A stretch of 51,897 nucleotides of DNA from a virus, in the IMG/VR virus record IMGVR_UViG_3300032893_000068, positions 1 through 51,897 of that record, one strand, 5' to 3'. A program made the position numbers and the translations under genes. Shown here piece by piece: positions 6,887-45,035 of the stretch (the first letter of the stretch is position 1; every line of letters begins with the position of its first letter). The notes beneath the pieces are model-generated. The model worked only from the letters and a program-made list of their open reading frames with translations, was not told where the DNA came from and made no database searches.

Positions 6887-8344
6887 TTATTGGGTGTACC
6901 ATTTTCCATCTTTCTGAATGTATGTCTTTCCACCGATTGTCTTGGTTACAGGTGCAGCATTTCCCCCAGCAGTGGGAACTTGGCCTCCATGCTGGGAAAT
7001 ATAGTCCTTCACACTGTTGCCAAATGTTTGATTTAGCAAACGATCACGCTGGTCTTTATTCAATCCAGACGGCGCTGTGGCTTTCTGTTGATCCAAATAG
7101 TTATTTCTCAAATCTTCCGACACAGTTCCCTGTCTTTCAATTGAGTGACGAAGATTCTGAAACACAGACTGAGTTGAGCCACCCAAGGTTTTTGGATCAA
7201 ACCCAAGATAGGTTAAGGCTCCATTTAGATCGCCTTTGGCTGTTCTGGATTCAATTTCTCTACGTGTTCCTTCAGATGCCTGTCCTGTCGGAGAAATTAC
7301 ATTCGCCAAACCAAGAGCTAATTCTGCATACTGAGAATTCGGAATATTGTAGTTGCCATTCTTATCTTTGTACTGATCCATCAAGTTTAGTAAGTGGATT
7401 GATCCATTCACTTTGGCATCTTGCTGTCCAATCTGTCCATTACGAGCTTTGGTAAGATTGTCTACCCATTCACGAGTTTCTTTTTCAAGCTTGTCTTGAC
7501 GATTGGCATTCATCATCGTCATCTGCATTTCTTTGTTGGCTTGAATTTGTTTTAGTTGCAGTTCTTTCATGTCCTTCTGATTTTGCATTGCAGCCAATTT
7601 CTCAATGGCAGGAATCTGTTCAGCAATTTGGGCTGCACTTCTTCCTTGAATCATCGGATCATTTGGATCTTTCTGTAAAAATTTACTCAGCAATCCCTGA
7701 TACTGCTTAGAAATATCTGAATTCGGATCATGACGAAGCTTATCTTCAAATTGTTGCTTAGCTTCAGCCGTATCTTTTTCTTCTCTTTCTCCTTCAGCCT
7801 TAGCATGCCCTTGTGAGACATTGGCTCCAAAAGCAGAAGCAGCCCCAGCTACAGCATCAGAAGCCTGAGCCAAAGCCATAGGAAGGATATTGAGTTTACG
7901 CCGTTTATTTAATTCATCCAGCATAGCCTTACGTTGAGCATCATCATTTGATGTTGCAAGTCCCTGGATTACATCTTTGTTAGACAAATCTGGATCAACA
8001 CTATTTTCATCTTCTTCCTCATCACCCGATTCAGCCTGTTTTGGTGTTACTTTGGGCATTGATGCAGACGGAGGAGGTGTTGGTGTTGCTTGTGAATTCA
8101 TGTCCGGTGGGGTTGTCGGAGCAGGAATCGAAGACATATTTCCATTCTGTGTTACTGTATTGTCCGATGTATTCACATCGAATGAAGAAGGAATTGAATT
8201 CGCATCAGGAATATTCAAATTTGTACTAGGCATAGTGAGTTGCGGCGCAACCGGAGCTAATGGTGTATTACCCAATACCTGTTGCACCTTATCAGGGTTT
8301 TGGCCCTGAAAAAGCTCTTTAAGTTTCTCGTAATAGTTTTCCAT
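6887..8344 (-). CDS. Internal virion-type protein, Q/N-rich and helical
   Basis: The N-terminal third is low-complexity, rich in P, T, N and S. An acidic patch (SGDEEEDENSVDPD) comes next, followed by long Q/K-rich helices with coiled-coil character and a short C-terminal segment ending GGKTYIQKDGKWYTQ, which looks like a small beta-hairpin. It shares the block with three other ejection-type genes and its start overlaps the upstream stop. A structural role inside the capsid is inferred from composition and order only. Confidence 0.55.
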   Translation of the reverse strand: MENYYEKLKELFQGQNPDKVQQVLGNTPLAPVAPQLTMPSTNLNIPDANSIPSSFDVNTSDNTVTQNGNMSSIPAPTTPPDMNSQATPTPPPSASMPKVTPKQAESGDEEEDENSVDPDLSNKDVIQGLATSNDDAQRKAMLDELNKRRKLNILPMALAQASDAVAGAASAFGANVSQGHAKAEGEREEKDTAEAKQQFEDKLRHDPNSDISKQYQGLLSKFLQKDPNDPMIQGRSAAQIAEQIPAIEKLAAMQNQKDMKELQLKQIQANKEMQMTMMNANRQDKLEKETREWVDNLTKARNGQIGQQDAKVNGSIHLLNLMDQYKDKNGNYNIPNSQYAELALGLANVISPTGQASEGTRREIESRTAKGDLNGALTYLGFDPKTLGGSTQSVFQNLRHSIERQGTVSEDLRNNYLDQQKATAPSGLNKDQRDRLLNQTFGNSVKDYISQHGGQVPTAGGNAAPVTKTIGGKTYIQKDGKWYTQ

Positions 8345-9888
8345 TATGATTGCCTCGGAAAATCAACCTTCGCATTACGCAATCGTTTCAAAGCAAGTTC
8401 TGTTGGATTGTGTGTAATGGCCTTATTCACAAAATTTGGTATTGACTGGGGATGAGCCACTGCTGTTCTTGGCAACACTACCTCACCAGGACTTAATTTA
8501 GCCTTTACTGTATCATTCATGATGTTATTCCCAGGAAGTTTGGCAATTCCAGGGACTTGTCCGCCTTTTCTAAAATCTTTCTCATGCGGCTGCTTCTCAC
8601 GCACTTTATCAGCATATTGAGCAGCCTCAGCATAATGCTCAAAACTTCCAATTGGCTGTCCATTTGGATCTTTGATTTGAAACTCACCAGGATTTTGGTC
8701 ATCAGGAGCAATTGGTAAAGGCGGCGTAGCTTTATTCTGATTGTTTTGTTTGGATGGTTTCACATGTACTTCTCCACCATCTGCCATGTTAATCTTTCCA
8801 CCATAACAATATTTTTTGGTAAAAGAATTATAGGCATCTTCCAAAGAAGGCTCATCTTCCACCATACCGCCTTCACTATAAAGACTGAGTGAATTATTGG
8901 TCTTAGGCATGTAGCCATTAGGAACAGTATTTGATGTAGCTGCATTAGCTGCTGCTCCACCAGCGGGGCCACCAAAAGCACCTCCAAGGGCCGTAGCACC
9001 AATGCCCAATGCCCCGGATGTAAGGGCTAAATTTCCTGCTTGTTCTTTATTAGCGTCTGAATTAGCTTGATTGGCCCAATTACTAAGCACACCAGCTTCT
9101 CCTTGGGCTTTCTGTAGGGCATCATTAAATAATGTTTGATTCTGTTGAGCATTGTATTCTGTCCCAGCATTCTGTGTGCTTGTATTCAGATTGGCTGTAT
9201 TTTGCTTATTTGCCAAGTTAGCTGCCTGAGCTTGATTAGCTGTCTGTGTATTAAATAGATTCGTAGCATTTGCTGTCTGAGCATTGAATTGATTGATGGC
9301 ATTCTCGGCGGCAGCTTTGTTAGCTTCTTCTCCGTAAGCTTGGTTTTCAAGTTGGGTTCCCAGTCCACCAGCTTGCTGCATAGCTTGCAATGCTCGTTGT
9401 TCCGCGTTGGCAGCAACAGATGTACCAGCTTGATTAGCCGAATTGGAAGCATTCTGTTGATTGATTAGACGATTAACTGTTTCAAGTCCAGACCCTCCAA
9501 CTCCTCTGGCTTTGGCATTCTGCATAATGGCTTGATCTTGGGCATTACGTTGTTCATTTTCTTGATTCTCAATGTCTTGAAGCTGCGCCTTATCAATCGC
9601 TGTCATTCCACCTTGATTCGCAACATCTTGCATCTGTTGCAAAGCTTGCTTAGCAGCACCAGTGTAAGAAGGATCAGTCTTTATTGCATTGAAAGCATTT
9701 GAATTGATGAGAGTGGCTTCTGCTTGTTCAGGAGTAAGCTGACCAGCATCAACATAATTTTGAAGTTGAACTTGAAGGGATGAAAGTTCTGGCGTTTTGA
9801 TTGCATCGAACGCATCATAAGCTTCCTGCCTAAGTTTGTCTGCTTTATCAGACCCCGTACTACCAAATAAACTCGAAAACATTCCCAT
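8344..9888 (-). CDS. Internal virion-type protein with GGxV and LSPGEVVLP motifs
   Basis: The first ~330 residues are A/Q/N-rich helical sequence of coiled-coil type. A Gly/Ala segment (ALGIGATALGGAFGGPAGGAAA) could be membrane-active. The C-terminal part contains MADGGEV and LSPGEVVLP, motifs I associate with podovirus internal virion proteins and their assembly partners. A related MAEGGEV occurs in the 15388-15909 protein, hinting at a shared binding or processing signal. Confidence 0.6.
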   Translation of the reverse strand: MGMFSSLFGSTGSDKADKLRQEAYDAFDAIKTPELSSLQVQLQNYVDAGQLTPEQAEATLINSNAFNAIKTDPSYTGAAKQALQQMQDVANQGGMTAIDKAQLQDIENQENEQRNAQDQAIMQNAKARGVGGSGLETVNRLINQQNASNSANQAGTSVAANAEQRALQAMQQAGGLGTQLENQAYGEEANKAAAENAINQFNAQTANATNLFNTQTANQAQAANLANKQNTANLNTSTQNAGTEYNAQQNQTLFNDALQKAQGEAGVLSNWANQANSDANKEQAGNLALTSGALGIGATALGGAFGGPAGGAAANAATSNTVPNGYMPKTNNSLSLYSEGGMVEDEPSLEDAYNSFTKKYCYGGKINMADGGEVHVKPSKQNNQNKATPPLPIAPDDQNPGEFQIKDPNGQPIGSFEHYAEAAQYADKVREKQPHEKDFRKGGQVPGIAKLPGNNIMNDTVKAKLSPGEVVLPRTAVAHPQSIPNFVNKAITHNPTELALKRLRNAKVDFPRQS

Positions 9889-31081: not shown

Positions 31082-31321
31082 ATGACCTTAAATAAACTCG
31101 GAACAAATCAGACGGAAATCACATTCGGAAAAGATAATCATGTTTTGTTTTCGTACAATACACCGGTTGCAGCATATTTTAACGGAGTGTTTTACAGAAC
31201 GTCTAAGAAATGGAGCAATACAACGTCGAAGCATATCAACAAATGGCTTGCGGGGGCAAATGGTGTAGTGGAAATCAAGCCACAAGAGTTTTTCACAAGT
31301 TTAACGCAGTACATGGGTTGA
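31082..31321 (+). CDS. DUF8033-type small phage protein
   Basis: The 79-residue product has VLFSYNTPVAAYFNGVFYRT and then SNTTSKHINKWL, the pattern of the DUF8033 family found in early regions of many phages. Biochemical function unknown. It is the first gene rightward from the divergence region, with a good ribosome binding site, so it is likely expressed immediately after infection. Confidence 0.78.
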   Translation: MTLNKLGTNQTEITFGKDNHVLFSYNTPVAAYFNGVFYRTSKKWSNTTSKHINKWLAGANGVVEIKPQEFFTSLTQYMG

Positions 31322-31325
31322 TGAT

Positions 31326-31481
31326 ATGACCAAAATACGAACGGTGACGCTTACACCAAAAGAAGCGCGAGAATTGGAACATAAAGGCTTTATCCTGAAA
31401 TTTAAAATGATGCACTTAGACGGGACAGACACATTTGATGTGTACGTGAGCAACACAGAGCAACAAGGGGCGAGCCTATGA
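31326..31481 (+). CDS. Small hypothetical protein, 51 residues
   Basis: The ORF follows the previous stop closely. The product has a basic N-terminal helix (TPKEARELEHKGFILKF) and a beta-like tail. The ribosome binding site is poor, but the stop overlaps the next ATG (ATGA), supporting it as part of the operon. Unknown. Confidence 0.5.
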   Translation: MTKIRTVTLTPKEARELEHKGFILKFKMMHLDGTDTFDVYVSNTEQQGASL

Positions 31482-31597
31482 AATTGGTCAAAATCATTCC
31501 GATTGAACTTGTCACCAATTTTTCATTCGATTGTCCTGGTTATATCTTTGTGTATGGTGTAGACTGTTTGAGAATCTACAAACAAGTGAGGAAATAA
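31478..31597 (+). CDS. Small hypothetical peptide, 39 residues
   Basis: It overlaps the previous gene by ATGA and ends just before the amidoligase start. The product is mildly hydrophobic with two Cys residues. As a small gene directly upstream of a peptide-ligase-type gene it could be a substrate, but only the position suggests that. Confidence 0.42.
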   Translation: MKLVKIIPIELVTNFSFDCPGYIFVYGVDCLRIYKQVRK

Positions 31598-31600
31598 ATC

Positions 31601-32803
31601 ATGCGAACGCTTTATAAAATAGATCGACGTTTCGAGAGTAGGGGGAGACAGTACGCCGTTGATGCGCTCACGCGCTTGATGACAATGCGAGAAGTGACAG
31701 CGGCCTACGTTCGGGAAGCAATCAAGTTAGGTGCAAAGTTTAACAGCAACAACCGCTTAGACAGTATGCGCCACGACATGAAAGAATTACGGCAACGATT
31801 CAAAAATGGTTTGATGGTGTATCATGATGACGCGCTTATGCGAACTGTGAACGGATATTCGTTTAGATCAACTATTCCGTCGGATAAACCGCGAGTAATG
31901 GCCTTAAAGATAGCTAAGGAAAGCCTCATTCGACAAATCAAAGAGTATCGACGCATGAGCAAAGTATTATACGACACTAAGGGCGCGAAAATCTTACGAC
32001 GCAAGCCGGGTCAGTTTATGATGGAAATTTTAGTTAGGCGCTTACGTGATCCGAAAACGCCAGTGACAAATGACCAATACATAGGAATTGAAATCGAGTG
32101 TGTAATGCCACGAACTGCCGATTTCACGGCGCTTGCGCCATTCCACAAATATGTAGCCGTCGGAACAGATGGAAGCGTGAACTATGAAAGCGGAGAGGAA
32201 GGCAGAGAAATCCGAGTGTGCTTAAAGCGTAGCGAAGTGAGGGACATATTGCCCAAAATCTTAGACACACTTCGGAACCTTGGCGCGTATGTCAACACGT
32301 CATGCGGGCTACACGTACATTTAGACCAGCGCAACAATCCAAGACCGGATATTGCTTTCAACAATCTTGTGCGAAGCCTTAGCCTCTTGTATAAGGTAGT
32401 CCCAGCGAGTAGACATAAAAACGGATACTGTCACCGTAACCGTACCGCAAACTGGAATGACGCAAGATATCAAGAAAGATACAAAGCAGTCAACGCAACG
32501 GCCTATGACCGATACAGAACGCTAGAGGTACGGCTTTTCGGTGGCACGTTGAACGCGACGAAAATCATAAACTGGGTTGAAACCCTAGAGGGAATCGTAG
32601 ATATGCCCGAAATGATGATGCGCTGCCCTGGTACTTTCAAACTTGCCCAAAAGAAATGGAAGCTATCAGATGAAAATGTAGCATGGCTAGAAATGCGTGA
32701 AAAAATGTTTAGTGACATAAATGTTAGTAGGACAGAAGCGGATCTAAACGGCGATGTGAACGTGCCGATAGCTGTAAACCAATTCGAAACTGTACCATTT
32801 TAA
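31601..32803 (+). CDS. Amidoligase (COOH-NH2 ligase fold)
   Basis: The 400-residue protein carries the hallmarks of the amidoligase family, which has a glutamine-synthetase-like fold and joins a carboxylate to an amine using ATP. IGIEIECV lies at about residues 161-168, TDGSV at 189-193, EIRV at 203-206, GLHVHLD at 236-242 and TLEVRLFGGTLN at 307-318. The N-terminal ~150 residues are helical and basic and may bind the substrate. The next gene is a class II glutamine amidotransferase that could supply ammonia, a pairing known for this enzyme class. The substrate is unknown; a peptide or protein tag is a reasonable guess. Confidence 0.85.
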   Translation: MRTLYKIDRRFESRGRQYAVDALTRLMTMREVTAAYVREAIKLGAKFNSNNRLDSMRHDMKELRQRFKNGLMVYHDDALMRTVNGYSFRSTIPSDKPRVMALKIAKESLIRQIKEYRRMSKVLYDTKGAKILRRKPGQFMMEILVRRLRDPKTPVTNDQYIGIEIECVMPRTADFTALAPFHKYVAVGTDGSVNYESGEEGREIRVCLKRSEVRDILPKILDTLRNLGAYVNTSCGLHVHLDQRNNPRPDIAFNNLVRSLSLLYKVVPASRHKNGYCHRNRTANWNDARYQERYKAVNATAYDRYRTLEVRLFGGTLNATKIINWVETLEGIVDMPEMMMRCPGTFKLAQKKWKLSDENVAWLEMREKMFSDINVSRTEADLNGDVNVPIAVNQFETVPF

Positions 32804-32815
32804 GGAGAAATGAAA

Positions 32816-33835
32816 ATGTGTAAACTTTACGCAGTGGTGGAAATTGAAAACAAAAAGAACGCGGAACTATTCACACGGGCAGCATTGCCAATCATAACGA
32901 AAACAGATAATCACGGGTTAGGCATTATGAGACTTGGCGAGCGGGGCGTACATATACAGCGATGGCTAGACTTGCCCGCCGTAGTGAGAAAGAATAAAAG
33001 CAAAGTGTTGATGAAATATGAGAAAGCATTAAAGCATCAAGCAAATGAGGAGGGAAATAGATCAAACAAATTGTATGCAATCGCAGTGCATGGAAGATTT
33101 GCAACTTGTGCAAAGACTCTAGCAAATACGCATCCGTTTTACAGAAACGGGACGGCCCTAATGCACAATGGAATCATAAGCAACGCGGAGAAATACGACA
33201 AGCCTTTAAGCACTTGTGACAGCGAAGCCTTACTAACTCAATACTTACAGCATGAAGTAAGAGCAAACAATATACGATTGACAGACGCGCTTAAGGATGT
33301 GAGCGGATATTATGCGACGATAGTGTTTAACGATAACGGGATAATTGACATTTGGCGAGATGAGACGGCAAGCCTTTACATCGCGCATGTTAAAGGCGTC
33401 GGGGTGGTGATAGCGACAACCAAGGAAATAATTACGGGCGCGGCCAGGAAATGCAAAGCATACATAACAGGCATTGATGAAATGCTCCCGTGGACTACAA
33501 TACGATGGCATAATGGGGTAAATCCTCGCATCGGCACGTTTGAGAATGGCAAGCCGTACCAGCTAACACATTACACAAGCGCCGCATCGGTTGTCGATGA
33601 TGAGTACAAAAAATGGTGGCAAAAACAAGACGGGACGGGCAGCATCGACGACGTGCCAGGGTATCAACCACGTGAATGGAGCAAAACAGAGAGATGGAAA
33701 GACTACGACAAGGGCAGTGGAGCGCCCGACGTGGTGGATGCATCAGAAGGACAAGGGCATAATTGGCCGGAAGGCGGCGATAGTGACGAGGATTTAGAAG
33801 CGAAGTTTCTAGCACATTTACAAAAAGGAAAATAA
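32816..33835 (+). CDS. Class II glutamine amidotransferase (Ntn hydrolase)
   Basis: I chose the ATG at 32816, eight bases after AAGGAG, because it places Cys at position 2, the catalytic N-terminal nucleophile after Met removal. VHGRFATC (about residues 91-98), MHNGIISN (116-123) and CDSEALL (134-140) are the standard family motifs. The enzyme would split glutamine and pass ammonia, plausibly to the amidoligase encoded directly upstream. A charged C-terminal extension (about residues 255-339) is rich in W, K, D and G and is not part of the usual domain. Confidence 0.88.
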   Translation: MCKLYAVVEIENKKNAELFTRAALPIITKTDNHGLGIMRLGERGVHIQRWLDLPAVVRKNKSKVLMKYEKALKHQANEEGNRSNKLYAIAVHGRFATCAKTLANTHPFYRNGTALMHNGIISNAEKYDKPLSTCDSEALLTQYLQHEVRANNIRLTDALKDVSGYYATIVFNDNGIIDIWRDETASLYIAHVKGVGVVIATTKEIITGAARKCKAYITGIDEMLPWTTIRWHNGVNPRIGTFENGKPYQLTHYTSAASVVDDEYKKWWQKQDGTGSIDDVPGYQPREWSKTERWKDYDKGSGAPDVVDASEGQGHNWPEGGDSDEDLEAKFLAHLQKGK

Positions 33836-42569: not shown

Positions 42570-42952
42570 AATTATTTTCTTATGCAAAAGATGGTGGCAA
42601 TAATTCTAATGTTGATGGGTTTTGGTTGATTGAGATTAAATCTTTATTTTCTATTGTAATATTGAAATTTAATAGAGGCAGTAGAGAGGCATTTCATTCA
42701 CATGCTTTTAACGCATTAACATGGTGGCTTAAAGGTAGGGTAACGGAGCATCATTTAACTGAGAAGAGTAAAGAATGGCACCCGTCATTTTTGCCTAAAT
42801 TTACGCCAAGGAATTGTTTTCATAAAGTATTCGCTAATGAAGATACGTATGCCATTTCATTTCGTGGCCCGTGGCAAGATAAATGGCAAGAATACCACCC
42901 GAAAGAAAAGAAATTTATTACACTTACACATGGGCGAAAGGTGGTTAATTAA
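42566..42952 (+). CDS. Cupin-like protein
   Basis: The 128-residue sequence carries VDGFWLIEIKSLFSIVILKF, then GSREAFHSHAFNALTWWLKG and FHKVFANEDTYAISFRGPW. The HSHAF and FHKV histidines are positioned as in cupin metal sites. This is a recurrent phage family; an enzymatic role is unknown. Start overlaps the previous stop (ATGA). Confidence 0.78.
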   Translation: MKLFSYAKDGGNNSNVDGFWLIEIKSLFSIVILKFNRGSREAFHSHAFNALTWWLKGRVTEHHLTEKSKEWHPSFLPKFTPRNCFHKVFANEDTYAISFRGPWQDKWQEYHPKEKKFITLTHGRKVVN

Positions 42953-43464
42953 TGAAAGTTTACTTAGCAAGAGGAATGTCAGGACGTGTAAAATCGGAAG
43001 TGGTGAAAGAGGCACGTCAAGATCGCCGCAAGCTTGACAAATTGGGCATAACTCCATTATGCCCAGTGCTGTCAGAGAATGTTCGAGCAGGAAAATCAGC
43101 CATTGCTTCTACAGTTGAACAGATGAACAATTACTGGTTTCGTGATAAACAGATGATTCGTGAAGCCAATGTAGTGTTCGACATGACGCCCGAATTAAAG
43201 AGCGAGGGAGTGGCGCATGAGATTGGATATGCACGATATTTCCTTTACAAGCCAGTTGTTCGAGTGTACAAGAACGGACAGCTACCACCGACAAGTTCAG
43301 TTGCATTCTATGAGGATGACCTGATTGTATCAAGTGTTGAAGAAGGTGCAGTGGAGGCACTTCGGCGGTGGGGAACTTGGTATCGTCGAATATTGTGGCG
43401 GTTTAGCTTGTACAAACGATGCTTACCAGGAATGATTAAAGCTTGGCTGGGAGGATGGAAATAA
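42952..43464 (+). CDS. Nucleoside 2-deoxyribosyltransferase-like protein
   Basis: The N-terminus MKVYLARGMSGRV, the VVFDMTP strand and the KSEGVAHEIGYARYFLYKPV helix match a phage family related to nucleoside 2-deoxyribosyltransferases, which exchange bases on deoxynucleosides. Nucleotide salvage or modified-base supply is possible. C-terminal ~40 residues are basic and aromatic, not part of the core. Confidence 0.72.
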   Translation: MKVYLARGMSGRVKSEVVKEARQDRRKLDKLGITPLCPVLSENVRAGKSAIASTVEQMNNYWFRDKQMIREANVVFDMTPELKSEGVAHEIGYARYFLYKPVVRVYKNGQLPPTSSVAFYEDDLIVSSVEEGAVEALRRWGTWYRRILWRFSLYKRCLPGMIKAWLGGWK

Positions 43465-44055: not shown

Positions 44056-44478
44056 ATTCCGTACATTAAAGAAGGACTCCGTAAGGAGCTTATGACCGAG
44101 CCTCAGCGAGCCAAAGACAATGTAGGTGCGATGAATTTTCTTTATTCAGAGGCTATTCTGAAAGTTTGGAATGCCAATCCGAAATATGAGACGATTCATA
44201 AACTTAGAGATGCTGTTAATTTTCATTCCCATATCCCTCAAATAGCAGAAGTTACTAAAGTTCTTGATAATAGTGGTGTTGACACTGCGGATAGCGCTGT
44301 AGCTTTAGAACTTGCTTTCTTAGAATTTTACCTTCGAGTGGGACAGCATTATGAAAGGGAAAAAAGAGATGAATCAGGTGATCTTCCAGGTTATGAGACA
44401 GCTATCAAGCATCTGAATGACATGGCACAAGCCAATTTCAATCGACGGATTGGCTTCACTCCAAAGGAGGCAAAATAA
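44056..44478 (+). CDS. Conserved phage protein (DUF6899-like), probable ATT start
   Basis: An ATG at 44092 has only a close AAGGAG, but the frame is open upstream to a TAA at 44039-44041. Upstream codons give I-PYIKEGLRKEL, matching the PYI...R.EL start of a known phage family, with ATT at 44056 eight bases after GGAGG. The product would be about 140 residues, with FLEFYLRVGQHYEREK as the family's EFYrRv-YE core. The ATT initiation is inferred. Confidence 0.65.
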   Translation: MPYIKEGLRKELMTEPQRAKDNVGAMNFLYSEAILKVWNANPKYETIHKLRDAVNFHSHIPQIAEVTKVLDNSGVDTADSAVALELAFLEFYLRVGQHYEREKRDESGDLPGYETAIKHLNDMAQANFNRRIGFTPKEAK

Positions 44479-45035
44479 TGGGACTGATCGGAGTATCAGG
44501 TAAAGCAAAGGCTGGGAAAGATTTACTTTGCAGTTTTGCAAATAAGGATGGCTGGACTCGATTGGCATTTGCTGATGCTTTGAAGAATAAAGTTAAAAGA
44601 GAGTTTGGACTAGAAGAAGATCATGTAAATGGTTGGCTGAAAGAAGCTGAAACAGATCTTCTTAATGGCCATAGCCCCCGCGAACTCATGATTGACATTG
44701 GCAACATCTATCGTAAATATGACCCAAATTATTGGGTGAAAACAGTGCTGGATGTCATCAAATCAAATCCAACAAAGAAAATCATGATTACAGACGTTCG
44801 CTTCCCAAATGAGGCAGATGCCATTCGCAATCATGGTGGTATTCTGGTTCGCTTGAATCGTCATCCGAAACGAGACAATTTGGTTAGTGATGAAACGAAG
44901 AAAAGCATTTCAGAAACGGCATTGGACAATTACAAGAAATGGGACTTCGAGCTTGAAGCACAAAATAATGAGACACCGGATCAATTGGCGGCTTTTTGGC
45001 AAGTTGTTTCCGCTGCCATAGGGATGAAACTCTAA
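44478..45035 (+). CDS. Deoxynucleoside monophosphate kinase (T4 gp1-like)
   Basis: GVSGKAKAGKD (residues 5-15) is a P-loop, and the sequence continues with LAFADALKNKVKREFGLE, SPRELMIDIGNIYR and KIMITDVRFPNEADAI, the order seen in phage dNMP kinases. Such enzymes phosphorylate several dNMPs, including modified ones. It fits the cluster of nucleotide-metabolism genes. Confidence 0.83.
   Translation: MGLIGVSGKAKAGKDLLCSFANKDGWTRLAFADALKNKVKREFGLEEDHVNGWLKEAETDLLNGHSPRELMIDIGNIYRKYDPNYWVKTVLDVIKSNPTKKIMITDVRFPNEADAIRNHGGILVRLNRHPKRDNLVSDETKKSISETALDNYKKWDFELEAQNNETPDQLAAFWQVVSAAIGMKL

Follow-up and report, generated by a model that had tools for sequence, protein, structure and literature searches.

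A phage amidoligase and class II glutamine amidotransferase gene pair, probably a two-component amidating enzyme

What is the function of an amidoligase that a phage encodes directly beside a glutamine amidotransferase? The question is raised by the virus record IMGVR_UViG_3300032893_000068 of IMG/VR, analysed here over its 51,897 bases (the window), in which the genes for an amidoligase (AL) and a class II glutamine amidotransferase (GAT) lie on the same strand with few bases between them. We consider it fairly probable that AL and GAT are the two components of an amidating enzyme that depends on glutamine, and that their genes form the minimal core of a cassette, carried as an optional insertion close to the beginning of a rightward operon. 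The features on which this interpretation turns are the following:

31601..32803, plus strand: amidoligase AL, 400 amino acids (aa), PF12224
31601-32065 (residues 1-155), plus strand: basic N-terminal extension of AL, modelled at low confidence
32816..33835, plus strand: class II glutamine amidotransferase GAT, of the Ntn type, assigned by motifs, GlmS profile and fold

The AL protein matches the Pfam family PF12224 (Amidoligase_2) at 53.3 bits, well above the curated cut-off of 22 (E 4.5e-14), and also PHROG 2443, 'amidoligase enzyme', which bears out the amidoligase identity given in the original prediction; PF12224 is matched by all 20 aligned AL relatives as well. The catalytic core extends approximately over residues 155-375 and contains a GxExE motif (E164, E166), D190, S192, E203, an HxH motif (H238, H240), R271 and an ExR motif (E309, R311). 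Within a set of 28 non-redundant AL-GAT pairs, which was used for the comparisons of layout, residues and distances, E164, E166, D190, S192, E203, H238, H240, E309 and R311 are kept without exception, and R271 and N298 are kept in 27. The predicted model of AL has pLDDT (predicted local distance difference test) values above 90 across most of the core and below 50 across much of the N-terminus, and among viral structures it is matched best by phage amidoligases (E 1e-16).

The open reading frame (ORF) of GAT was listed as 341 aa at 32810-33835. The start is probably at 32816, however, because a Shine-Dalgarno-like AAGGAG lies 8 nt before the second ATG as against 2 nt before the first; a protein initiated there would have a Met-Cys N-terminus and hence, after removal of the methionine, a cysteine at position 1. 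Numbered from 32816, the class II motifs are complete (Cys2, HGRFAT with R94, NTHPF, HNG with N118 and G119, and DS with D135), as had been claimed for this protein from its N-terminal cysteine onwards, and the cysteine is present in 27 of the 28 pairs, the exception being a truncated ORF. The catalytic residues of GAT as a whole are, like those of AL, kept with few or no exceptions across these pairs. Although GAT scores slightly under the cut-off of Pfam PF13522 (24.3 against 27), a profile built from related proteins finds GlmS (E = 6e-31), and its predicted structure matches the glutaminase domain of GlmS (1xff) with a template modelling score (TM-score) of 0.71. The glutaminase domain of about 240 aa is followed by an acidic C-terminal tail that is probably disordered.

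The GAT tails are acidic in the window and in a related IMG/VR locus (L001), whereas the AL N-terminal extension is strongly basic, with a net charge of approximately +17 to +20 in the window, L001 and a further locus, L011; docking or nucleic-acid contact is possible. In the locus L027 a Cys-rich, zinc-ribbon-like N-terminus replaces the basic extension of AL (7185-8375), and the C-terminal segment of GAT contains CxxC...CxxC.

Could the second protein be a hydrolase of another kind? In ergothioneine synthesis, EgtA is an amidoligase and EgtC a class II hydrolase, and the main alternative follows this scheme: AL would couple an amine with a gamma-glutamyl group, and gamma-glutamyl amides would be cut by the GAT-like protein, which would then not serve as the source of ammonia. 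Glutaminases and EgtC have a similar set of Cys, Arg, Asn-Gly and Asp residues, and EgtC is a further structural match of the GAT model (TM-score of about 0.64), accompanied by a weak match to the NCBIfam EgtC family. The GlmS glutaminase is nevertheless the better match by both profile and fold, GlmS outscores EgtC in NCBIfam, and a gamma-glutamyl cyclotransferase was found nowhere in the window; we regard gamma-glutamyl chemistry of this type as unlikely.

The genomic distribution of the two genes argues for a functional link. A pairing search anchored on GAT profiles alone, and blind to AL, recovered 27 viral loci in 17 clusters, and a same-strand AL lies within about 1.3 kb in 14 of these clusters, one of the three exceptions being cut off just upstream. 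All 28 non-redundant pairs are encoded on one strand, with AL followed by GAT in 20 and a gap of at most 121 bases likewise in 20; several overlap. The distance matrices of AL and GAT across the 28 pairs are correlated at r = 0.81, a value reached in none of 5000 permutations. The adjacency observed earlier in the window is therefore that of a conserved pair. In two loci a single GAT is flanked by two same-strand AL paralogues, L083 (6498-7772, 10871-12097) and L090 (6556-7746, 8829-10607), and a further AL-GAT pair, L094 (7731-9826), comes from a Bacteroidales metagenome-assembled genome, where it lies on a contig of 81 kb and is perhaps part of a prophage.

Class II amidotransferases use their N-terminal cysteine to free ammonia from glutamine and hand it to an attached synthetase, and amidoligases carry out ATP-driven activation of carboxylates. 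Combined, these activities would give a glutamine-dependent amidating enzyme made of two proteins, and the intact sites, the adjacency and the co-variation are consistent with it. Given its intact class II site, GAT would hydrolyse glutamine at the N-terminal cysteine and release ammonia; conserved adjacency and co-variation suggest that this ammonia passes from GAT to AL; and AL, as a member of the amidoligase family, would spend ATP on activating a carboxylate, with an acyl phosphate as the probable intermediate, and would then form the amide. Complex formation, ammonia transfer and the amide product are in this way predicted from sequence, and carboxylate amidation with ammonia taken from glutamine, one of the chemistries put forward in the original prediction, appears to be the best reading.

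Several observations weigh against a two-component amidating enzyme. As regards the glutamine synthetase/GCS-like fold predicted for the PF12224 family, the AL model has no match among solved structures at E <= 0.001 in the fold search, which means that the acyl-phosphate mechanism rests on the family assignment; a profile search of AL also recovered no plausible relative among solved structures. Shared phage ancestry explains part of the correlation between the AL and GAT distances. Several phages with full flanks have AL without GAT, which indicates that the dependence is mainly that of GAT on AL, and AL can therefore act without GAT, conceivably as a genuine ligase that takes a different amine. 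The gamma-glutamyl cyclotransferase that occurs in fuller cassettes, and also beside the pair of the Arthrobacter phage genus Laroyevirus, points to gamma-glutamyl chemistry. Finally, in the literature we found, no product or substrate is given for any phage PF12224 enzyme. A group of IMG/VR contigs (L018-L062) contains many AL genes with no adjoining GAT even where the flanks are long (e.g. L047, L049 and L019), and these may be true ligases using another amine.

How does the pair compare with known systems? It is of a known type, namely the core of a cassette present in LUZ24, tf, phiEco32, RIO-1, the OM43 phages and Laroyevirus, and the window contains a minimal, two-gene, reduced form of this phage amidoligase cassette. 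Cassette profiles recover the additional genes in LUZ24, phiEco32, RIO-1 and, partly, in L012 and L090, whereas none of the window ORFs of at least 30 aa matched an ATP-grasp ligase, a second COOH-NH2 ligase or a gamma-glutamyl cyclotransferase, with the reservation that the window may be a fragment. In LUZ24 (Bruynoghevirus) the second ligase is gp16, AL gp18, GAT gp19, the ATP-grasp ligase gp21 and the cyclotransferase gp22, and phiEco32 (Kuravirus) has the same gene set in the same order, with AL-GAT as 84-83. In both phages, as in the window, AL is followed by GAT on one strand and the AL catalytic and GAT class II motifs are present; unlike the window, both add the second COOH-NH2 ligase, the RimK-like ATP-grasp ligase and the gamma-glutamyl cyclotransferase. 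Sequence identity between the window proteins and these counterparts is only about 13-20%, and hhalign comparison of a two-row AL alignment with the single LUZ24 or phiEco32 AL gave a weak result (probability 7-8), so the link of AL to these phages relies on shared motifs, Pfam and gene order.

Other cassettes differ more in their arrangement. In RIO-1/HP1 (Zobellviridae; PMC5498523), AL, GAT, ATP-grasp ligase, second ligase and cyclotransferase are clustered, but GAT precedes AL, at a distance of about 1.6-1.9 kb, and none of the further genes was found in the window; Vibrio phage 1.293.O has the cassette gene set of RIO-1, in an order unlike that of LUZ24 and phiEco32. The OM43 phages, a different lineage likened here by description, have PF12224 and PF13522 in the same phages, as in the window (PMC10580990). 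Laroyevirus (Shrooms gp97-gp98) has an adjacent AL-GAT pair like that of the window, with neither an ATP-grasp nor a second ligase in the stretch read, but a cyclotransferase-like gene is located upstream, and its AL and GAT are about 26% and 23% identical to the window proteins. The closest pairs found are those of L001 and L011 (AL 43% and 34%, GAT 62% and 42% identical to the window), which share the two-gene layout beside divergent terminase genes. The large terminase proteins (TerL) of these two loci are only 23-25% identical to that of the window, which indicates separate histories for the pair and for the structural module.

Three small ORFs precede the pair in the window:

31082..31321, plus strand: 79-aa ORF matching phrog_5643 at 3.8e-26, which opens the rightward operon
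31326..31481, plus strand: 51-aa ORF with a homologue in L099 (5525-5656, 47% identity)
31478..31597, plus strand: 39-aa ORF with a homologue in L105 (5496-5630, 50% identity)

Are any of these products substrates of AL? The original prediction correctly placed the 39-aa and 51-aa ORFs directly upstream of AL and suggested that AL might link such a peptide to a target, a proposal in keeping with their position and with starts that overlap or lie close (the 39-aa ORF begins within the stop of the 51-aa ORF). In L001/L010, L011 and L027, the closest relatives that have the pair, no homologue of any of the three small ORFs was found in its vicinity. A scan with the window terminase instead led to sister phages, L099 (a 52.7 kb contig) and L105 (36.9 kb), whose TerL proteins are approximately 60-64% identical to that of the window. 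Homologues of the 79-aa ORF (both contigs), the 51-aa ORF (L099) and the 39-aa ORF (L105) are encoded there on the strand opposite to the terminase, as in the window, while profile searches of the whole contigs, which may be incomplete but include the region in question, found neither AL nor GAT. This indicates that the small ORFs are ordinary genes of the lineage and that AL and GAT together were inserted as accessory genes. The 39-aa and 51-aa ORFs are thus probably real small genes of the window phage lineage that stand outside the AL-GAT system, the 51-aa ORF having no match among 50,697 phage records. The 79-aa ORF belongs to a widespread phage family unlinked to AL-GAT, which occurs in 74 phage records, including Listeria, Prochlorococcus, Pectobacterium and Cronobacter phages, and the phages of this family yielded no AL match.

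We also looked for a conserved third partner, a comparison that the original prediction had proposed as one check, by clustering all ORFs of at least 25 aa within 3 kb of the 28 pairs. No small ORF recurs beyond near relatives. The commonest clustered neighbor is an ATP-grasp ligase (7 pairs), and the Pfam and PHROG counts of neighbors consist mainly of ParB, WhiB and methyltransferases contributed by few related loci. No small protein was found that is kept next to the ligase as its dedicated substrate, as in Pup/PafA-like tagging. The small upstream ORFs, which are not kept with the pair and do occur in sister phages that lack it, were accordingly rejected as AL substrates or tags, and the linking of an upstream peptide to a target is largely refuted, with hardly any probability left to it. 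Small ORFs not conserved beside the pair were also what the original prediction had itself named as the sequence half of the evidence that would count against it, and that half is what we observe. A conserved ORF of 84-85 aa, not found in the window, lies before AL or after GAT in the two phages L001 (4542-4796) and L011 (9829-10086).

What, then, would be amidated? The genomic prediction of amidoligase cassettes reportedly goes back to Iyer et al. in 2009 (doi 10.1039/b917682a), and later papers cite it directly or via followers. The AL/GAT cluster has been described as a 'peptidoglycan modification cassette' and hypothesised to act against superinfection (PMC5498523). AL and GAT were reported in OM43 phages with a possible role in wall modification, the function being called unexplored (PMC10580990), and the cell-wall idea was repeated for prophage amidoligases (PMC11318856). 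The literature searched contained no experiment on the phage amidoligase or GAT enzymes themselves, in agreement with the earlier remark that such systems are known from phages and their role is largely unknown. Our likeliest single guess, offered tentatively, is that the pair acts on a carboxylate group of a peptide in the host cell envelope, peptidoglycan for instance, and that this change would hinder later phages or lysis. It may also be, though we think it rather unlikely, that the two-gene form amidates on its own, with no ATP-grasp ligase, second ligase or cyclotransferase, that it spreads as a unit among phages that are not related, and that it alters a carboxylate of the host envelope or of a protein to exclude other phages or blunt a defence.

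A role in nitrogen metabolism has also been proposed (PMC10945688), and the pair could on this basis shift the nitrogen or glutathione-type metabolism of the host during infection. That proposal was based on whole-phage growth effects and not on the AL or GAT genes, and the window pair resembles phage amidoligases and not a known host metabolic enzyme; such an auxiliary metabolic role seems to us very unlikely. Counter-defence, which the original prediction had favored together with host takeover, is a possible role of the pair but gained no support from the PADLOC defence families, none of which was matched by AL or GAT.

AL-GAT pairs are widespread in phages, and neither sequence nor fold searches found a family member with a solved structure. 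The two-gene form, together with sister phages that lack the pair, provides a simple test bed for the old cell-wall hypothesis: only two proteins are involved, the catalytic residues to mutate are clear, and the sister phages serve as natural controls.

The remaining features concern the surroundings of the pair:

from 31082, plus strand: rightward operon comprising the 79-aa, 51-aa and 39-aa ORFs, AL, GAT and a small zinc-ribbon-like protein
42952-43464 and 44478-45035, on the same arm as the AL-GAT pair: nucleoside 2-deoxyribosyltransferase-like protein and deoxynucleoside monophosphate kinase

The left part of the window encodes P22-like portal and TerL genes on the minus strand, divergent from the rightward operon, and farther down this operon are HNH, sigma-like, holin, primase-helicase and PolA genes. 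Judged by its gene content the operon is probably an early region, and the earlier placement of the pair at the start of such a region fits this gene map. Scores in a promoter scan upstream were only modestly above those of shuffled sequences and were not used as evidence.

The position of the pair within the replication arm, and the presence of the kinase and the deoxyribosyltransferase-like protein, could also suggest a modified base or nucleotide, destined for phage DNA, as the substrate of amidation. This we consider highly improbable, as none of the window proteins scanned was assigned to a thymidylate synthase-like, base hydroxylase or 7-deazaguanine family, and no such family ranks among the 25 most frequent in a Pfam count around 22 pair loci. 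Regarded apart from the pair, the genes for the deoxyribosyltransferase-like protein and the monophosphate kinase indicate that the nucleotide metabolism of the window phage may be unusual.
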